From a virus: a stretch of 29,591 bases of DNA. The stretch's first letter is position 1. Each line of letters begins with the position of its first letter. Shown in pieces: positions 1 through 29,591 of the stretch. Made by a program: the position numbers and the translations under genes. The notes beneath the pieces are model-generated. The model did not search any database. It worked only from the letters and a program-made list of their open reading frames with translations, and was not told the origin of the DNA. The stretch lies in IMG/VR virus record IMGVR_UViG_3300029309_000235, positions 1-29,591 of that record; one strand, given 5' to 3'.

Positions 1-162
1 GTAGATTCCTTCATTCTCACGTCGGCCTCTATTCATCCAGTTGTAAAAAGTCTTCTGCTCAATCCCTGCATATTTTGACGCAAGCTCGATCGTCATTCCC
101 AGCTGTAGCGCCTCGATAATCATTGCTTGTCTTTGTGGGTTTAGCTTTGTTCGTCGAGACAT
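1..162 (-). CDS. Terminase small subunit, N-terminal fragment (left copy)
   Basis: These 54 codons are cut by the window edge. The peptide is identical to residues 1-54 of the complete small terminase at 28692-29126, although about ten bases differ, so all differences are synonymous. It contains the helix-turn-helix (LASKYAGIEQKTFYNWMNRG) that would bind the packaging site. The start ATG at 160-162 lies inside the end of the methyltransferase gene (22-bp overlap), with SD-like GAGGATGT just upstream. It is the second sight of a locus that is complete at the right end of the window. Confidence 0.85.
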   Translation of the reverse strand, partial: MSRRTKLNPQRQAMIIEALQLGMTIELASKYAGIEQKTFYNWMNRGRRENEGIY

Positions 163-612
163 ACATCCTCCTCTAAGCGCTCAATCTTTAAACCGTCTAT
201 CTCTACAATATCAACGCCCTCAGCATTTTTGATCCGCTGTAAACAAATATCAGCATAATCAGGCTCTCTCTCAATACCGATCGATCTGAACCCCTCAAGA
301 CTCGAAGCTACTCCAGTAGTCCCCGATCCCAAGAAAGGCTCTAAGACAAGACCGTTAACGGGTGTCACAAGGCGAATAAGCCACCGCATCAGATTGACGG
401 GCTTGACGGTAGGATGAAAGTTTTTAACCTCGCCCGCTGTTCTTCCTGCGCCCGCTCTTGGTGAAGATAGAGCTTTGGAATTTTCCCCATGATATTCAAC
501 AGCAGCTGAGCTTTTGCTCTCAAGATCTGTAAGTCCCTCCTCACGCTCTGATCGTGATGGTTTCGGGCATTGGTAGAGGTTAGCGGGCCATCTTCCTGTC
601 AAGTGACCACTC
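1..612. repeat. Left copy of diverged terminal redundancy
   Basis: This stretch aligns co-linearly with 28965-29591, offset 28964 at its left end and 28979 at its right end because the right copy carries 15 extra bases. It holds the first 54 codons of the small terminase and the last part of the methyltransferase. The copies differ by about 5-12% over most of the length and strongly in one block (about 455-518). They are identical over the last 93 bases (520-612 versus 29499-29591). The simplest reading is the same locus seen twice in a circular or permuted genome from a mixed population. A true duplication cannot be excluded. Confidence 0.85.
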
Positions 613-4287: not shown

Positions 4288-4947
4288 CTATTCGATATTG
4301 TGATGCTTTTTATGGCAGCTGGTGCACAGAACACACAGATCCTCAAGCTCTTCTCTGCCCAATCTCTCATAGCTGTTGTGGTGCACCTCAAGCCGAGTTT
4401 GAGCTTGTGAACAAAGCTGACAACGATAACCGGCCCTTTTTAATGCAATCTTGCGCTTCTTCTTCCAGCTCCCGCTGTTGAGATATGCCGCATATCCCTG
4501 TTTATCTACAGAGTCGGGGATGTGATCGACCTCTTCCCAATCGAGGAGAAACGCCTTGTGTGCTCTGATTCTGTCCTTGTTGCTACAGATATCACATTGT
4601 TGATCATAGTCTGCGTTTCTGCTGGTCTTGCGGGCTGTGTAATCGCTACCACAAGAGACACATTGAGCCATAAAACACAGCGGGCCAGATATAGCGCTCA
4701 GCTGCTTTGCGCTCTTGCCTGTCAATTGCTGGATTGTGCTCGCATTTAAATTGCTATGCCAGTACAGAAACCTGACCAGCTCGGCCTTTTGATCGTCGTC
4801 AGCGCCTTGCAGAAAAGTAGAACAGGCATCATCTAGCTGCTTCATGCTCTCCTCTTTTAGCTCTTTAAGATATTGAATGTTGCCTGTGAGCATTTCCATC
4901 ATGCGCAAGGTTTCAACGATTCTAAATTGTGGGGGTCTTTTGGTCAT
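4288..4947 (-). CDS. HNH endonuclease with zinc ribbon
   Basis: A 219-residue protein. The N-terminal half is helical and includes a helix-turn-helix-like segment (LNASTIQQLTGKSAKQL). A CxxC...CxxC zinc ribbon follows at about residues 108-136 (CVSC, CDIC). The C-terminal HNH domain has CQLC, the catalytic LEVHHNSY and the CTSCHKKHH metal knuckle (about 175-217). It probably cuts or nicks DNA. Many phages carry HNH enzymes for packaging or as homing-like elements; this one lies in the replication operon, joined by an ATGA overlap (4944-4947) to the gene before it, so a replication or host-DNA role is more likely than packaging. Confidence 0.85.
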   Translation of the reverse strand: MTKRPPQFRIVETLRMMEMLTGNIQYLKELKEESMKQLDDACSTFLQGADDDQKAELVRFLYWHSNLNASTIQQLTGKSAKQLSAISGPLCFMAQCVSCGSDYTARKTSRNADYDQQCDICSNKDRIRAHKAFLLDWEEVDHIPDSVDKQGYAAYLNSGSWKKKRKIALKRAGYRCQLCSQAQTRLEVHHNSYERLGREELEDLCVLCTSCHKKHHNIE

Positions 4948-5591
4948 GGGCTGTTTTCTCTAAAGAGGGTTAACATATCTTTTTCATGGTTGGGTAAATG
5001 CTTTGCAAGTGGCTTGTAAGTCCTGCTTTTAAAGCCCTCGTTCCACCAATCCTGATCTGGGCACACTTGAAGCTCCATAGGTATCCGCTCCTCGTGCCTC
5101 GTTTGCACCCAGACATCCGTTATCAGGTTGTCTCTACGATCTAGGATCTCAAGCAGTACATCAAGCTTATGTATTCCGAGATTCTGCTTTTTGCGGCCTG
5201 CCTCACATTTGCAGCTGGCGAAAACTTGCGTCATTCTTGGGGCCTGTTTGATGCGCTCCCAGTAATGCACCAGCCTCAAACCACCGTCACAAAGCTCACA
5301 GTCTGCATAAGTGGTTTTGAGCTTGCTGTTTCCGATAAAACCCCGCATAGCTTTGACGATCTTTCCTGCTGGCGGTGGAAATTCGGCAAGACTCTCAGCT
5401 ATGAATTTCCCCGCTGCTTTGGTGATTGCTTCGGGCTTTGTTTCTTTAAAAGAGGATCTTAGTATTACCTCCATTTGTGTAAGCCATTCGTCATTTGTTC
5501 TAAGTATTGACCAGTTTGTTTGTAGCATAGATGCGGCATGATTGCACGCTCTCACATGGTCGGGTGTTCCGTATCTGTATTGATCTGTCAT
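4944..5591 (-). CDS. Cys-rich replication-accessory candidate
   Basis: A 215-residue protein just downstream of the winged-helix initiator, in the position that a helicase loader (lambda P, DnaC/DnaI type) takes in lambda-like replication modules. Visible features are a helical N-terminal half, then CELC (about 98-101) and CKC (about 126-128), consistent with one zinc site, and a basic/aromatic C-terminus. No Walker A motif is present, so it is not an AAA+ loader. Start ATG 5591 follows ACAGGAGCTACC. The loader idea rests on gene order only; it may instead be a primase-like or unrelated factor. Confidence 0.6.
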   Translation of the reverse strand: MTDQYRYGTPDHVRACNHAASMLQTNWSILRTNDEWLTQMEVILRSSFKETKPEAITKAAGKFIAESLAEFPPPAGKIVKAMRGFIGNSKLKTTYADCELCDGGLRLVHYWERIKQAPRMTQVFASCKCEAGRKKQNLGIHKLDVLLEILDRRDNLITDVWVQTRHEERIPMELQVCPDQDWWNEGFKSRTYKPLAKHLPNHEKDMLTLFRENSP

Positions 5592-5604: not shown

Positions 5605-6069
5605 TTAAAAGTCTGAATCGAAATAAGAAGAAAAATCTACAATATTATCATGTTTATTATTTTGTTTATATATGTAGCTATCCTCAGACATGTTTGAGGC
5701 TGCTGATTTACTCACCATGTTGAGATTTCTATTGTCCTCAGACATGTTTGAGGATATTGAGGGCGCATCCCGAACAATCACAAGCTCAATAATTGCGGGT
5801 CGTCCTAGCTGCCTTGTTACTGTTAGCGTGTTAGGGAAGCGCTTTTTAAGCAGGGCGATCCCTCTTCCTATCGTTGCCCTGCTGATCCCTGACATTTTGC
5901 CCATTTGAGATTGTGAGACAGTGCATTTTGTTGTGATGTGCTTGTTGCTCATATGGAGATAGCTGCAATATCTCAAAGCGAGATAAGCTTTCATTTCGGC
6001 CTGTTTCATCTGTGCTATATGGCGCAGGTCTTCGGCGAAAAGCCGCGCGTGCTTTGTTTGTTTGGACAT
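5605..6069 (-). CDS. Winged-helix replication initiator, lambda O-like
   Basis: A 154-residue protein, the first gene of the leftward early operon. Residues about 48-98 form a winged helix-turn-helix (VSQSQMGKMSGISRATIGRG, then a TVTRQLGRPAIIEL wing), as in phage O-type and plasmid replication initiators. The last third is low-complexity, with a repeated SNMSED peptide. That repeat is the translation of iterons in the DNA at 5682-5753, next to an AT-rich stretch, so the gene appears to contain the origin its product binds. AACAGGAGGA precedes ATG 6069. It could alternatively be only a transcriptional regulator. Confidence 0.7.
   Translation of the reverse strand: MSKQTKHARLFAEDLRHIAQMKQAEMKAYLALRYCSYLHMSNKHITTKCTVSQSQMGKMSGISRATIGRGIALLKKRFPNTLTVTRQLGRPAIIELVIVRDAPSISSNMSEDNRNLNMVSKSAASNMSEDSYIYKQNNKHDNIVDFSSYFDSDF
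5618..5753. other. Putative replication origin inside initiator gene
   Basis: Three regularly spaced dyad repeats (5682-5753) lie next to about 60 bp of very AT-rich DNA (5618-5678), all within the coding region of the winged-helix initiator. This is the architecture of lambda ori: iterons in the middle of gene O followed by an AT-rich unwinding region. Assignment is by structure only. Confidence 0.65.
5682..5753. repeat. Three iterons, 27-bp spacing
   Basis: CCTCAGACATGTTTGAGG occurs at 5682-5699 and 5736-5753. A shorter, degenerate member, CTCACCATGTTGAG, lies at 5711-5724. The centres are 5690.5, 5717.5 and 5744.5, exactly 27 bp apart. Each is a hyphenated palindrome (CTCA/TGAG arms), as expected for initiator binding sites. 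Confidence 0.8.
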
Positions 6070-6084
6070 CTATTGTCCTCCTGT

Positions 6085-6142: not shown

Positions 6143-6712
6143 ATGAAATACTGTTTTTTTGACACAGAAACCACCGGCCTCAAGCCTGATCGCCACGAGC
6201 TGATCAGCTTTGCTATAATATTACACAACAATGATAAAGAGATCTATAGGACGCATCAAAAAATCACACCTTTAAGGCTCAACGAGGCAGATCCGCAGGC
6301 CTTAAAAGTCAACGGTTACACTTATGAGGGTTGGAAAAACAGCGTGCACTCAAGCAAAGCAGCACTCTGGTTAAGAGACTTTTTTGATCAGCGGCCTGAT
6401 ATGGTGATTGTGGGACACAACCCGCTATTTGATATTGAGTTTGTCAAGGCTCTTGTTTGTCCTAGATACACTAATTTTAAGATGAAAAATCGATATATAG
6501 ACACAAAGCATTTAGCGTTAGCTTCGTTGTTTCCTTTGGGCTTGAAGAGCTGTCGACTCGATGAAATTAGGCGTTTTTTGGGATGGTCGCTGGACAATGC
6601 ACATGACGCGCTTGTTGATACTGAGCATGTGCGGGATCTGTTTTATCTGTGTCGCCGTGACCTTAAAAAATTAGAGTGGAAATTTTTGCCCGATGGGATA
6701 AACTACACGTGA
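6143..6712 (+). CDS. DEDDh 3'-5' exonuclease (DnaQ-like)
   Basis: A 189-residue protein of the DnaQ/RNase T superfamily. Exo I motif FFDTETTGL (acidic residues D7 and E9), Exo II region VGHNPLFDIEFVK and Exo III HDALVDTEHV with the catalytic His and final Asp are all present, so it should be active on DNA or RNA 3' ends. No polymerase is fused to it. It may trim ends for recombination with the annealing-protein candidate, degrade host nucleic acid, or proofread. It is the only non-structural gene on the rightward arm. AAGGAT lies 5 bases before ATG. Confidence 0.9.
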   Translation: MKYCFFDTETTGLKPDRHELISFAIILHNNDKEIYRTHQKITPLRLNEADPQALKVNGYTYEGWKNSVHSSKAALWLRDFFDQRPDMVIVGHNPLFDIEFVKALVCPRYTNFKMKNRYIDTKHLALASLFPLGLKSCRLDEIRRFLGWSLDNAHDALVDTEHVRDLFYLCRRDLKKLEWKFLPDGINYT

Positions 6713-7552: not shown

Positions 7553-9187
7553 ATGGCTATTCAAATCAGAAGCAATCAGATCGCAAATGCGCAGGTCGGC
7601 GCAGCGAAGCTGGATCTATCATCGGGCACGTTTAATTTTGCCTCTGCTACAGTACAAGTGGCGACACCATCAGCAGATGCACAAGCTGCTAACAAAGGCT
7701 ATGTAGACTCTGTTGCTCAGGGTCTTGATGTTAAAGACTCGTGTAAAGTCGCCACAACTGCAAACATCACTCTAAGCGGGACTCAGACCATAGACGGGAT
7801 CGCTGTTGCGGCGGACGATAGAGTGCTGGTAAAGAATCAGAGCACCGCCTCTGAAAATGGGCTTTATTTGTGTAAAGCTGGCGCATGGTCAAGAACAGAC
7901 GACCTATCAGCGGGATCAGATGCTGCGGGCGCTTTTGTCTTTATTGAGCAAGGATCAACACAAGCCGACGCCGGTTTTGTTTGCACCAGTGATAAAGGCG
8001 CTGCCGTAGTCGGCACAAATCCGTTAGCTTTCACTCAGTTTTCGGGCGCTGGGTCGGTAGAGGCTGGAAACGGTTTAAGTCGCTCAGGATCGACTTTAAG
8101 CGTCAATCTTGACGGATCGACCTTGGCAGTATCTGGATCAGGTGTAAAAGTTGCAGACGGTGGAATAGCTGATGCTCAGATCTCAAACAGTGCAGCGATT
8201 GCAGTATCTAAGCTTGCGGCCTCTTCTGTCACCTTGGGCGGGGTAACTGTCTCTTTGGGTGGCTCAGATGCCACACCGGCTTTTAATCTTCAGGATGCGA
8301 CCGGTTACGCAACTGGATCTCTAGTCGGTACAATCTCAAATGCGCAACTAGCGGGCAGCATAAGCGAGGATAAGCTTCTTGGGTCTATCCCAAATGGAAA
8401 GCTCGCAAATTCTAGCATTTCGATCGGTGGTGTAACTTTTGCGCTTGGTTCGAGCGATGCGACCCCTGCGCTAGATCTCGCCGATGCAACCAACTATCCT
8501 ACTAGTTCTCTAGTCGGGCAGATAAGCAATTCGCAACTTAGTGGTAGCATTGCGAATTCAAAACTTGCAAATTCTAGCATTTCGATCGGTGGTGTAACTT
8601 TGGCCTTGGGTGGCTCAGATGCGACCCCAGCGCTGGATTTGGCTGATGCGACTAATTACCCTACTAGTTCTCTGGTCGGGCAGATAACGAACTCACAGCT
8701 TAGCGGCAGCATAAGCGCAGATAAGCTAGCGGGCAGTATACCCGACTCAGCCCTGCTTAATATCAGCGCTGCTAACAAAGTTCAGGGATCAGCGGTTCAG
8801 CTTAAGGCTTCTGGATCTGGTATTGCCAACGACTCAGGACTTAAAATCAACACAGATGGAGCTACAGTACAGGTCAACGGATCAAACAATCTTGAAATCA
8901 AGGATAACGGAGTAACAGCTGCTAAAGTTAGCTTCAATACTCAAATAGACTTTTTCACGCCAAACGGATCTACTCAAAACTTCGATCTGTCTAATACGAT
9001 TCCCGCAGGATTTGAGGGAATGCTCGTGTTTCGAAACGGTGTTGCATTGAAGCAGGTTGCCTCCTCTCCTGCTGATGTTGACGAATTTGCTTTGAACAGA
9101 ACCGGTGGAAGTGGCGGCGTCAGCAGAATAGAGCTGGGCGCTCAACCATCATCAAGCGATACATTAAATGCATTTTACATAGCTTAA
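7553..9187 (+). CDS. Repetitive tail fibre protein
   Basis: A 544-residue probable host-recognition fibre. The N-terminal part (about 1-170) has the pattern ANKGYVDSVAQGLDVKDS...VLVKNQ...ENGLY...AGAFVFIEQG, widespread in phage fibres. The middle consists of repeats of about 54 residues (SSISIGGVTFALG...DATPALDLADATNYPTSSLVG). The C-terminal 90 residues form a different beta domain, likely the receptor-binding tip. GGAG lies before ATG. It ends before a terminator. The tape-measure and tail-tip genes lie on the opposite strand, so the fibre is regulated as a separate unit. Confidence 0.85.
   Translation: MAIQIRSNQIANAQVGAAKLDLSSGTFNFASATVQVATPSADAQAANKGYVDSVAQGLDVKDSCKVATTANITLSGTQTIDGIAVAADDRVLVKNQSTASENGLYLCKAGAWSRTDDLSAGSDAAGAFVFIEQGSTQADAGFVCTSDKGAAVVGTNPLAFTQFSGAGSVEAGNGLSRSGSTLSVNLDGSTLAVSGSGVKVADGGIADAQISNSAAIAVSKLAASSVTLGGVTVSLGGSDATPAFNLQDATGYATGSLVGTISNAQLAGSISEDKLLGSIPNGKLANSSISIGGVTFALGSSDATPALDLADATNYPTSSLVGQISNSQLSGSIANSKLANSSISIGGVTLALGGSDATPALDLADATNYPTSSLVGQITNSQLSGSISADKLAGSIPDSALLNISAANKVQGSAVQLKASGSGIANDSGLKINTDGATVQVNGSNNLEIKDNGVTAAKVSFNTQIDFFTPNGSTQNFDLSNTIPAGFEGMLVFRNGVALKQVASSPADVDEFALNRTGGSGGVSRIELGAQPSSSDTLNAFYIA
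8405..8728 (+). repeat. 162-bp tandem repeats in fibre gene
   Basis: Two tandem 162-bp (54-codon) units start at 8405 and 8567. Their first 35 bases are identical, and a degenerate, longer unit precedes them from about 8215. Unit-number change by recombination would shorten or lengthen the fibre shaft in steps of 54 residues. Confidence 0.85.
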
Positions 9188-26749: not shown

Positions 26750-28234
26750 TTATCTATGGGCCAAAAATCGCTTATACTGCATGATCTGATAGCGCAAAGC
26801 ATCAAGCGCATGATCGTATTTCTTGATCGGTTTGTCCTGTTTGCTTTTCTGATCCCACTTATACAGCTTAAGCTCTTTGATTAAGTTCCTACATTTCGGT
26901 TTTATGAGGAGCCTTACTTTGCCCTCAAGATCAGGAGCAAAAAACTCTTTGACTTGGTTGATCCCCTCCACCACTCCGAAATGCTTTGGCGCTGCTAGCG
27001 TTCTCAGGTCAAGTTCTCGCGCCAATGTGAGCCGCCCGTCACGACTCTCAGGATCTGCTACAGTCCAGTCGAAATCCTGCCCCTTTGAGCGCCTCAAGAT
27101 CTCCCTGCCGCTTTCCAGTGTGGTCTTTTCTGTCCAGTACAGCTCATCATAAACAATAAGCACCGGATCGGCAGCAAGATAACCAGCTGGAGCCTCAGCA
27201 AACCACAAGCAGCAAAACGGGTGTGATGTCCCAAAGTCGATCGATCTAAATCTGCGCCAATGATCCGGTAACTTTTCGAGCTTTGTAATGTGGCGATCTG
27301 GTCTGAATTCCGAATAGATGAGTCCGGTCTGCGCTGCAAACTCACCGAATAGCCTAGACTGCTGTGCCTCTTCGCTTAGGTGGCCCACAGCCCGCCGCAT
27401 CTTAACACTTGATATATACGGGTTATCAAGCCCTGAGATCTGAACACGTGCAAACCCTGCGGGCGGTTTTTCGACAAAGCGATCAAACATCCAGCTTAGG
27501 CCCTTAAGCGGGGTAGCGGTCACAATAACCCGCCCCCGCTGATCCACGGTACGAAGGATCGACTCCTCAAAGACCGGCTCAGGCGGCTCCTCATCCAGCC
27601 AAACCATCGACACGCTGCCGCCTTGCCAGCTCTCCCTGCCAGCGTCACAAGACATGGACACGATCCGTCCTTTGTTGGGCAAAATGGCGACCGCTCGATC
27701 TTGTGAGTTCCACCTTGTCCGCTTTGTGTTCTTGGGCAGGAATAGATCCAGCTTCGGCCGCATGTATTCAAGCCCGTCCTTGTAGCTCAAAGAACCACAC
27801 CAAACAGTCGAAGGTCGATCAGGGATAAGATCGGGCGGTATTTCATTGAGTGTGATCCAGTCCATAACCCACCGTTCATCCTTACCCGCTGCGAATGCTA
27901 CAGCCAATTGCGCTCCCATGTGACTTTTGCCGGATCTATTTCCCCCGCTGATCAGTGTCGCCTCATCGGCTAGAGATTTGATTGCTTCTTTCTGAGAAGT
28001 CCGTTCTTCGGTGATGTCGCAATGATCACACCGATAAAGTCCCGCGCTTATTTTGTGCATCTTACGACCGCACCCGCGCAAACGCGGGCTTTTATCGCTC
28101 AAGCCATCCCAACGACAGCAGAATGGTTCCCAAAGACGCCCCGCTGAAAGAGGATAGGCTTTTATGTAGGCAAGTAGCTCCTGTCGTAGTGTTAGCGACT
28201 TTTCCAGCTTTGTTCGATCTGATGTGGTGCTCAT
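26750..28234 (-). CDS. Terminase large subunit
   Basis: 494 residues from ATG 28234 (ATGA overlap with the GNAT gene; in-frame ATG 28249 with AGGTGA is possible). Numbered from 28234: Walker A GGNRSGKS (97-104), Walker B VWLDEEPP (211-218), coupling motif TATP, and nuclease acidic residues in SIDFG, VADPES and DHALDAL (D333, D394, D474/D478). This ATPase/nuclease packages DNA. An unusual N-terminal Cys cluster (C39, C40, C55, C69, C72) resembles a zinc ribbon. The 44-base gap to the portal gene holds only its ribosome site. Confidence 0.93.
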   Translation of the reverse strand: MSTTSDRTKLEKSLTLRQELLAYIKAYPLSAGRLWEPFCCRWDGLSDKSPRLRGCGRKMHKISAGLYRCDHCDITEERTSQKEAIKSLADEATLISGGNRSGKSHMGAQLAVAFAAGKDERWVMDWITLNEIPPDLIPDRPSTVWCGSLSYKDGLEYMRPKLDLFLPKNTKRTRWNSQDRAVAILPNKGRIVSMSCDAGRESWQGGSVSMVWLDEEPPEPVFEESILRTVDQRGRVIVTATPLKGLSWMFDRFVEKPPAGFARVQISGLDNPYISSVKMRRAVGHLSEEAQQSRLFGEFAAQTGLIYSEFRPDRHITKLEKLPDHWRRFRSIDFGTSHPFCCLWFAEAPAGYLAADPVLIVYDELYWTEKTTLESGREILRRSKGQDFDWTVADPESRDGRLTLARELDLRTLAAPKHFGVVEGINQVKEFFAPDLEGKVRLLIKPKCRNLIKELKLYKWDQKSKQDKPIKKYDHALDALRYQIMQYKRFLAHR

Positions 28235-28692
28235 AAGAGTTTGACCCATCTCACCTTGTCTATTTCTGGAAATAAGCCACTTTGTCGGGGTCTACTTTTA
28301 CAAGACCAGCTGCGCCCTTTTGTGTGTCCGTCTATCTCCCAGCCAGAAGCCTTTAAGCTGATCCCTGCCTCTGTATGCAAAATATATGTATAGATTCGTT
28401 TATATCCCAGCTCTCTAGCTATCCTAGCAGCGCGAGAATATACAAATGAACACGCGTTTTTATGGTCTCCATTAATACACAGTCTAGTTACCTCCAAAGA
28501 AAAACCATCCTGTAGTACCCTTGATACTGGCCTACCTATTTGCGCCACGCCTATAATTTTATTTTTGTCTGTTACATTGGCAATAGCAAGACGAAAAACA
28601 TCCCCATGCGATCCTTTCTTGTGGTGTCTGTGATGATCTTCAATAAACTTCTTTGCCTCTTTTTGTGTCATTGGTACAGTAACATAATGCAT
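28231..28692 (-). CDS. XF1762/Mom-like GNAT protein
   Basis: A 153-residue protein beginning MHYVTVPMTQKEAKKFIEDH with HHRHH, then IGVAQIGRPVSR, LEVTRLCING, NACSFVYSRAARIARELGY and ILHTEAGISLKASGW. This pattern is that of the XF1762 family, a GNAT-fold group related to phage Mu Mom, which adds a modified group to adenine in DNA. It forms a TAATG overlap with the small terminase and ATGA with the large terminase, so it is co-expressed with packaging. It may modify phage DNA to resist restriction, perhaps with the methyltransferase. Substrate not shown. Confidence 0.8.
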   Translation of the reverse strand: MHYVTVPMTQKEAKKFIEDHHRHHKKGSHGDVFRLAIANVTDKNKIIGVAQIGRPVSRVLQDGFSLEVTRLCINGDHKNACSFVYSRAARIARELGYKRIYTYILHTEAGISLKASGWEIDGHTKGRSWSCKSRPRQSGLFPEIDKVRWVKLL

Positions 28693-29126
28693 TATTCATC
28701 CAAATCGATCACAGGATCGGCAATAAAATTTTCTAGCTCAAGATCTGTCTCTTTGACCTGCTGAATGAGCTGTGTGATGCTCGCTTCTTTTGCGTCAATC
28801 TGCACAATGACCTCCGGCTCTTGTTTTGCGTGGTATTTGTGGCGGCGCTCCATAATCCAAGCTGAAGCCTGCCATGTTCCCTCCTTAGCGGCCTTCTGAA
28901 TGATTGCCATATTGACCAGAGCGCTCTTTGCAATTGCCTTTTCAATTGCTTGTAAAAACTGAAAGTAAATTCCCTCATTCTCGCGGCGACCTCTGTTCAT
29001 CCAGTTATAAAAAGTCTTCTGCTCAATCCCTGCATATTTTGACGCAAGCTCGATCGTCATTCCCAGCTGTAGCGCCTCGATGATCATTGCCTGTCTTTGT
29101 GGGTTTAGCTTTGTTCGTCTAGACAT
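28692..29126 (-). CDS. Terminase small subunit
   Basis: A 144-residue complete copy. The N-terminal helix-turn-helix (LASKYAGIEQKTFYNWMNRG, about residues 28-47) is followed by a helical oligomerisation region (QAIEKAIAKSALVNMAIIQKAA) and WIMERRHKYHAKQ, then an acidic tail. It recognises the packaging site and hands DNA to the large subunit two genes downstream. The start is inside the methyltransferase end (22-bp overlap) and its stop shares an A with the next ATG. The first 54 residues are identical to the left-edge fragment. Confidence 0.85.
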   Translation of the reverse strand: MSRRTKLNPQRQAMIIEALQLGMTIELASKYAGIEQKTFYNWMNRGRRENEGIYFQFLQAIEKAIAKSALVNMAIIQKAAKEGTWQASAWIMERRHKYHAKQEPEVIVQIDAKEASITQLIQQVKETDLELENFIADPVIDLDE

Positions 29127-29591
29127 ACATCCTCCTCTAAGCGCTCAATCTTTAAAGCCTCTATCTCTACAATATCGACACCTTCGGCATTCTTGATCCG
29201 CTGCAAACAAATATCAGCATAGTCGGGTTCTCGCTCAATACCGATCGATCTGAACCCCTCAAGACTTGAGGCTACACCAGTAGTTCCAGACCCAAGAAAA
29301 GGCTCTAAAACAAGACCGTTAACGGGTGTCACAAGGCGAATAAGCCAACGCATCAAATTGACGGGCTTGACTGTTGGATGAAAGTTTTTAACCTCACCCG
29401 CTGTTCTTCCTGTGCCCGCTCTCGGATCATTGATTCCCTTCTCCCACTTATTCGGCTTTGTGTCTTTCTGGTGCTGTACAGCAGGAGGAACTTTGGCTTC
29501 AAGATCTGTAAGTCCCTCCTCACGCTCTGATCGTGATGGTTTCGGGCATTGGTAGAGGTTAGCGGGCCATCTTCCTGTCAAGTGACCACTC
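28965..29591. repeat. Right copy of diverged terminal redundancy
   Basis: The partner of 1-612. It carries a 15-base net insertion and an unrelated block in the methyltransferase (about 29419-29498), while the last 93 bases are identical to 520-612. It holds the start of the small terminase and the end of the methyltransferase. Confidence 0.85.
29105..29591 (-). CDS. Methyltransferase C-terminal part (right copy)
   Basis: The C-terminal 161 codons of a second version of the methyltransferase, cut by the window edge. From FHPTVKPVNLMRW through motif I (FLGSGTTG) to the C-terminus it is nearly the same as the left copy; only EIEALK replaces EIDGLK. Between DLE and PRAG, 24 residues (AKVPPAVQHQK...) replace 19 (SKSSAAVEYHG...), a complete change. 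This block precedes motif I, in or next to the expected target-recognition region of a beta-class enzyme. It overlaps the small terminase start as at the left end. Confidence 0.85.
   Translation of the reverse strand, partial: SGHLTGRWPANLYQCPKPSRSEREEGLTDLEAKVPPAVQHQKDTKPNKWEKGINDPRAGTGRTAGEVKNFHPTVKPVNLMRWLIRLVTPVNGLVLEPFLGSGTTGVASSLEGFRSIGIEREPDYADICLQRIKNAEGVDIVEIEALKIERLEEDVCLDEQS

Follow-up and report, generated by a model that had tools for sequence, protein, structure and literature searches.

A Probable Lambda-like Replication Origin Embedded in the Gene of a Small Phage Initiator

The locus described here raises the question of whether one small phage gene both encodes a replication initiator and houses the origin at which that initiator would act. 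It lies in virus record IMGVR_UViG_3300029309_000235, of which the whole 29,591-nucleotide stretch was analyzed (hereafter the window), and a first-pass annotation made from the sequence alone had described it as a lambda-like origin inside a small initiator gene. That description is supported by our analysis, as the layout is kept in both relatives that were found and the repeats co-vary with the presumed DNA-reading part of the protein. The outcome that the annotation had named as refuting, iterons missing or irregularly spaced in close relatives, did not arise. Origin activity is what we infer from these observations. We consider it highly probable that a small uncultured phage with a circularly mapping genome starts its replication at this segment, within the gene for its own initiator, and that the segment works in the manner of lambda O/ori.

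RESULTS

The 3' half of the putative initiator gene, whose start is preceded by a strong ribosome-binding site (AGGAGG), contains three CATG-centered dyads with a center-to-center spacing of exactly 27 bp, as had been claimed (Table 1). The two outer 18-mers are identical and have no further copy in the window at ≤3 mismatches. When three evenly spaced dyads were scored blind, the initiator gene ranked first among 188 genome tiles, with a score of 20 compared with a maximum of 18 in 400 dinucleotide shuffles. The flanking 60-bp AT-rich tract was likewise recovered where it had been reported, next to the array, and falls within the second least stable 80-bp interval of the genome as judged by nearest-neighbor energy.

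Relatives were sought with the initiator, the next gene, the exonuclease, the terminase, a capsid-region protein and the iteron pair as queries, and of 2.9 million viral contigs only two others, L001 and L010, were found to hold the region. Scans of bacterial genomes returned nothing, and the search of isolate phages gave no convincing homologue. In the window and both relatives the initiator gene sits between a divergent exonuclease gene and a gene for a 215-amino acid protein, and both relatives carry, inside the gene, a regularly spaced CATG-centered array (spacings of 25/25 bp in L001 and 24/26/25 bp in L010), and an AT tract lies downstream of the array in all three genomes. A loose motif, TCA-N0-2-CATG-N0-2-TGA, occurs three times in each of these ∼30-kb genomes, where shuffled genomes give an expectation of about 0.5, and all of its occurrences (9/9) fall inside the initiator gene; the motif was composed after the sites had been seen; nothing in its wording restricts it to one gene.

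Table 1. Coordinates of the array, the initiator gene and its neighbors (window positions unless a contig is named; iterons read 5' to 3' on the gene strand)
Feature	Position	Strand	Description
Putative replication initiator gene	5605..6069	minus	Open reading frame, 154 amino acids, 465 bp; N-terminal helix-turn-helix, short linker with iterons, conserved C-terminal tail
Helix-turn-helix region, codons 39-68	5866..5955	minus	Presumed DNA-reading element; peak of window/L001 divergence
Iteron 1	5736..5753	minus	CCTCAAACATGTCTGAGG, center 5744.5
Iteron 2 (middle)	5711..5724	minus	CTCAACATGGTGAG, shorter, different dyad, center 5717.5
Iteron 3	5682..5699	minus	CCTCAAACATGTCTGAGG, same as iteron 1, center 5690.5; adjoins AT tract
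AT-rich tract	5622..5681	minus	Presumed DNA unwinding element; 60 bp, 83% A+T; abuts iteron 3
Conserved C-terminal tail, codons 131-154	5608..5679	minus	SYIYKQNNK...NIV.FSSYFDSDF; overlaps AT tract
L001 initiator homologue	L001:5001-5459		IMGVR_UViG_3300025132_000020; 77-78% amino acid identity
L010 initiator homologue	L010:1409-1867		IMGVR_UViG_3300030406_005472; 38% amino acid identity
Next gene	4944..5591	minus	215 amino acids; loader candidate by position; neighbor in all three genomes, identity 91% and 57-60%
DnaQ-like 3'-5' exonuclease gene	6143..6712	plus	Divergent, conserved neighbor; Pfam RNase_T 6.8e-17; PHROG 192 DNA polymerase exonuclease subunit 4e-32

A 12-mer, GAGGACAATAGA, is also present twice in the window, at the ribosome-binding site of the initiator gene (6068-6080) and between iterons 1 and 2 (5727-5739), and L001 keeps only the ribosome-binding-site copy. 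It is possibly an autoregulatory half-site, or else a coincidence.

The place of the motif bears on the reading that the gene encodes a transcription regulator and that the dyads are its operators, without a role in replication. The closest Pfam matches are indeed to generic helix-turn-helix (HTH) domains, with HTH_36 matching all three initiator homologues below threshold (best E 7e-4), and one PHROG match of the initiator is a transcriptional regulator. Weak matches were also obtained to PHROG 678 (replication initiation O-like; E 0.003, with two of the three homologues matching) and to PHROG 8102 (replication initiation protein; E about 0.003), and neither Phage_rep_O nor any Rep family matched the initiator in the Pfam search. 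A search of solved structures gave no useful match. The gene had been called a winged-helix gene, and of this the small HTH gene stands, while the winged helix rests on the sub-threshold HTH profile matches and not on structure. In all three genomes, however, the motif is confined to the 3' half of the gene itself and never appears at promoters; the adjoining AT tract and the absence of any other recognized initiator suit an origin, and the gene adjoins both the conserved DnaQ-like exonuclease gene and a conserved operon. We therefore regard a purely regulatory role as unlikely.

The repeats had also been said to force a repeated SNMSED peptide on the protein, which is true of the two outer iterons but not of the middle dyad, which differs and encodes LNMVS. 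The reverse possibility, that a repeated SNMSED peptide in a low-complexity tail gave rise to the repeats as a by-product, can draw on the identity of the peptide encoded by the outer copies in the window. When the protein was held fixed and its codons were redrawn from the phage's own usage in 20,000 trials, three sites arose in none of the trials for the window (0/20,000) or for L001 (0) and in 2 for L010. The CATG cores of L001, at a spacing of exactly 25 bp, occupy three different reading frames, so that the sites encode three different peptides, KESTCDAN, RKVNMVRQ and KESHGDAS (TCD, NMV and HGD at the sites themselves), and the by-product explanation is refuted for this genome. Hence it is the DNA and not the peptide that is conserved, selection acts on the array DNA rather than on what it encodes, and the peptide explanation retains a negligible probability.

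Over the 2.4-kb replication region the window and L001 are 87% identical (about 13% different), and sliding-window divergence between them has two sharp peaks, one at the HTH (5843-5962, up to 0.43) and one at the array (5678-5797, up to 0.35), with values elsewhere in the region of mostly 0.02-0.25. In HTH codons 39-68, 35 of 90 nucleotides and 12 of 30 amino acids are changed, compared with about 0.1 changes per nucleotide in the flanks, and in the array block 20 codons are changed, none of them synonymously. The dyad arms pass from CTCA/TGAG in the window to GTCA/TGAC in L001 around an unchanged CATG core. This is the trace expected when a DNA-binding protein and its sites change together, and it argues strongly for such a change here; no other line of evidence is as strong. 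Because the array co-varies with the HTH we tie it to this protein, which on the same grounds would bind it.

Joint change is also what is left unexplained if the array acts as hairpins in RNA or single-stranded DNA, for example as an attenuator or a primase assembly site. Compared with shuffles, the array does fold well in the window (z -4.65), with z -2.3 in L001 and L010. Known iteron arrays of O genes fold better still (z -5.8 to -6.7), trivially, as palindromic repeats do, and with these O genes as the control the RNA hairpin reading was dropped as a by-product of such repeats. We judge any version of the hairpin explanation very improbable.

The C-terminal tail of the initiator is conserved: codons 131-154 differ between the window and L001 at 4 of 72 nucleotides and 1 of 24 amino acids, and the pattern KQNNK..NI.....F..DF is retained in L010. 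Such conservation could reflect a role of the DNA, of the protein or of both, and through the tail the initiator may contact a helicase loader or the host replisome.

The next gene had been put forward as the loader candidate, a proposal that has its position in its favor; no family match was obtained for it, and the claim that it is a P-type loader was dropped as one to which the sequence gives no support. Among the genome products scanned no helicase, primase or polymerase was recognized, and the phage should therefore depend on the host replisome and need an origin-binding protein, for which an initiator that recruits that replisome would be the natural reading.

An array bound by this protein might alternatively serve as a partition (centromere-like) or packaging site. 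Dyad arrays occur at centromeres, and the phage itself has a gene with a ParB N-terminal domain (ParB_N; 141-1883). This domain is, however, fused to an N6/N4 DNA methylase, with no ParA partner recognized, the terminase genes are about 7 kb distant from the array, and an AT tract together with a position within the gene is typical of O-type origins. Such a site is, in our estimation, a slight prospect.

Several features of the genome lie outside the replication region. Because the two ends of the window (1-612 and 28965-29591) overlap at 87.5% identity, the genome has a circular map of about 29 kb in which the two ends represent different strain variants; the terminal repeat of the L001 contig is exact and 99 bp long. 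The C-terminal half of the ParB_N-methylase fusion is strain-variable, and its version in L010 is longer (658 amino acids). A Mom-like DNA modification protein is encoded at 28231-28692 (PHROG 1384, E 2e-34); tblastn found no counterpart of it in the L001 contig or in L010. The large structural gene at 7553-9187 is 39% identical to its L001 counterpart, with neighbors at about 90% or more, which suggests a host-range or surface-protein swap. A small protein encoded at 2390-2854 and ending AETRAIARALRLYCAIGMTSLEELGG (PHROG 22961) is conserved in all three genomes.

DISCUSSION

A number of observations weigh against an origin of this kind, or against its kinship with lambda. The relatives are only two, and the co-switch of HTH and array is a single, unreplicated contrast between the window and L001, L010 being too distant for a second clean one. 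The count that places 32 of the 36 amino acid changes between the window and L001 within the HTH and array blocks uses block limits drawn after the data had been seen, unlike the sliding window. For L001 and L010 the dyad score by itself does not exceed that of shuffles, and the case in these genomes accordingly rests on motif, spacing and location. Cumulative GC skew, which had been proposed as a check, lends the origin no support: there is no switch at the site, skew at 4-fold sites keeps its sign across the array, and overall skew tracks gene direction. The next gene has no detectable likeness to lambda P, and no P-type loader is recognizable. Alignment of the initiator with seven O proteins is marginal (hhalign E 0.0018, probability 15%, compared with 1.6% for an unrelated HTH control). 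The earlier statement that the protein may be a convergent or minimal version of lambda O was a fair description. Given the marginal links to O and the lack of likeness to lambda P in the next gene, we limit the claim to a locus that works like lambda O/ori and do not extend it to membership of the O family.

In the mechanism that we propose, the 154-amino acid protein would bind the dyads, probably as dimers, and the array would build a nucleoprotein complex that leads the adjoining AT tract to melt. The C-terminal tail or the product of the next gene would then bring in the host DnaB helicase, host recruitment being proposed because the genome has no recognizable helicase, primase or polymerase. 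A more specific version, which we offer tentatively and would place a little below an even chance, is that of a minimal replicon of lambda-like design, with a remote relationship to O or none, in which an HTH cassette of ∼30 codons and an iteron cassette of ∼75 bp, both within one 465-bp gene, have been co-switched, so that phages otherwise alike have two origin specificities, and in which the short tail replaces the O C-terminal domain for helicase recruitment.

If the segment is an origin, the design in which the origin lies inside the initiator gene would extend to a phage group for which the isolate and genome collections searched contain no close relative, and would persist even where the initiator is half as large as lambda O. 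The window and L001 would also constitute a natural experiment, in that most of the difference between two closely related replicons apparently lies in the DNA-reading helix and the sites it targets, and the evolution of origin specificity would be open to direct test by means of two small cassettes. It is this natural co-switch of specificity that deserves to be followed up.

The lambda origin is part of the O gene, where four 19-bp dyad iterons are bound by O dimers and the AT-rich region next to them opens (PMC5043065, PMC4488673), and a passage of PMC7466680 that cites earlier work states that two iterons plus the AT tract are enough for unwinding. As a positive control, the repeat tool used here was applied to known O genes and recovered the iteron arrays within them (lambda, PAJU2, mEp237 and the P22-type MG40). 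The window resembles lambda O/ori, as well as P22 gene 18 and the O genes of PAJU2 and mEp237, in having dyad iterons within the initiator's own gene, in a linker after the N-terminal DNA-binding part and before an AT-rich tract. Specificity for the own type would be common to lambda-type O genes and the window system (PMC4488673, PMC5043065, PMC7466680). The differences are that the initiator is about half the size of lambda O (154 compared with 299 amino acids), that its iterons number three at 27 bp rather than four at 20-24 bp, and that it has no counterpart of the O C-terminal domain but a conserved tail of about 24 amino acids in its place, which gave no match to residues 193-274 of lambda O, the region found most widely across O-like proteins. 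Unlike in lambda, the AT tract encodes the last residues of the initiator. The combination of an HTH initiator with an iteron array adjoining an AT-rich unwinding region also recalls the iteron plasmid origins (RepE, RepA and pi), from which the window differs in that every one of its sites is a dyad. In those plasmids the iterons are located beside the rep gene and not inside it.
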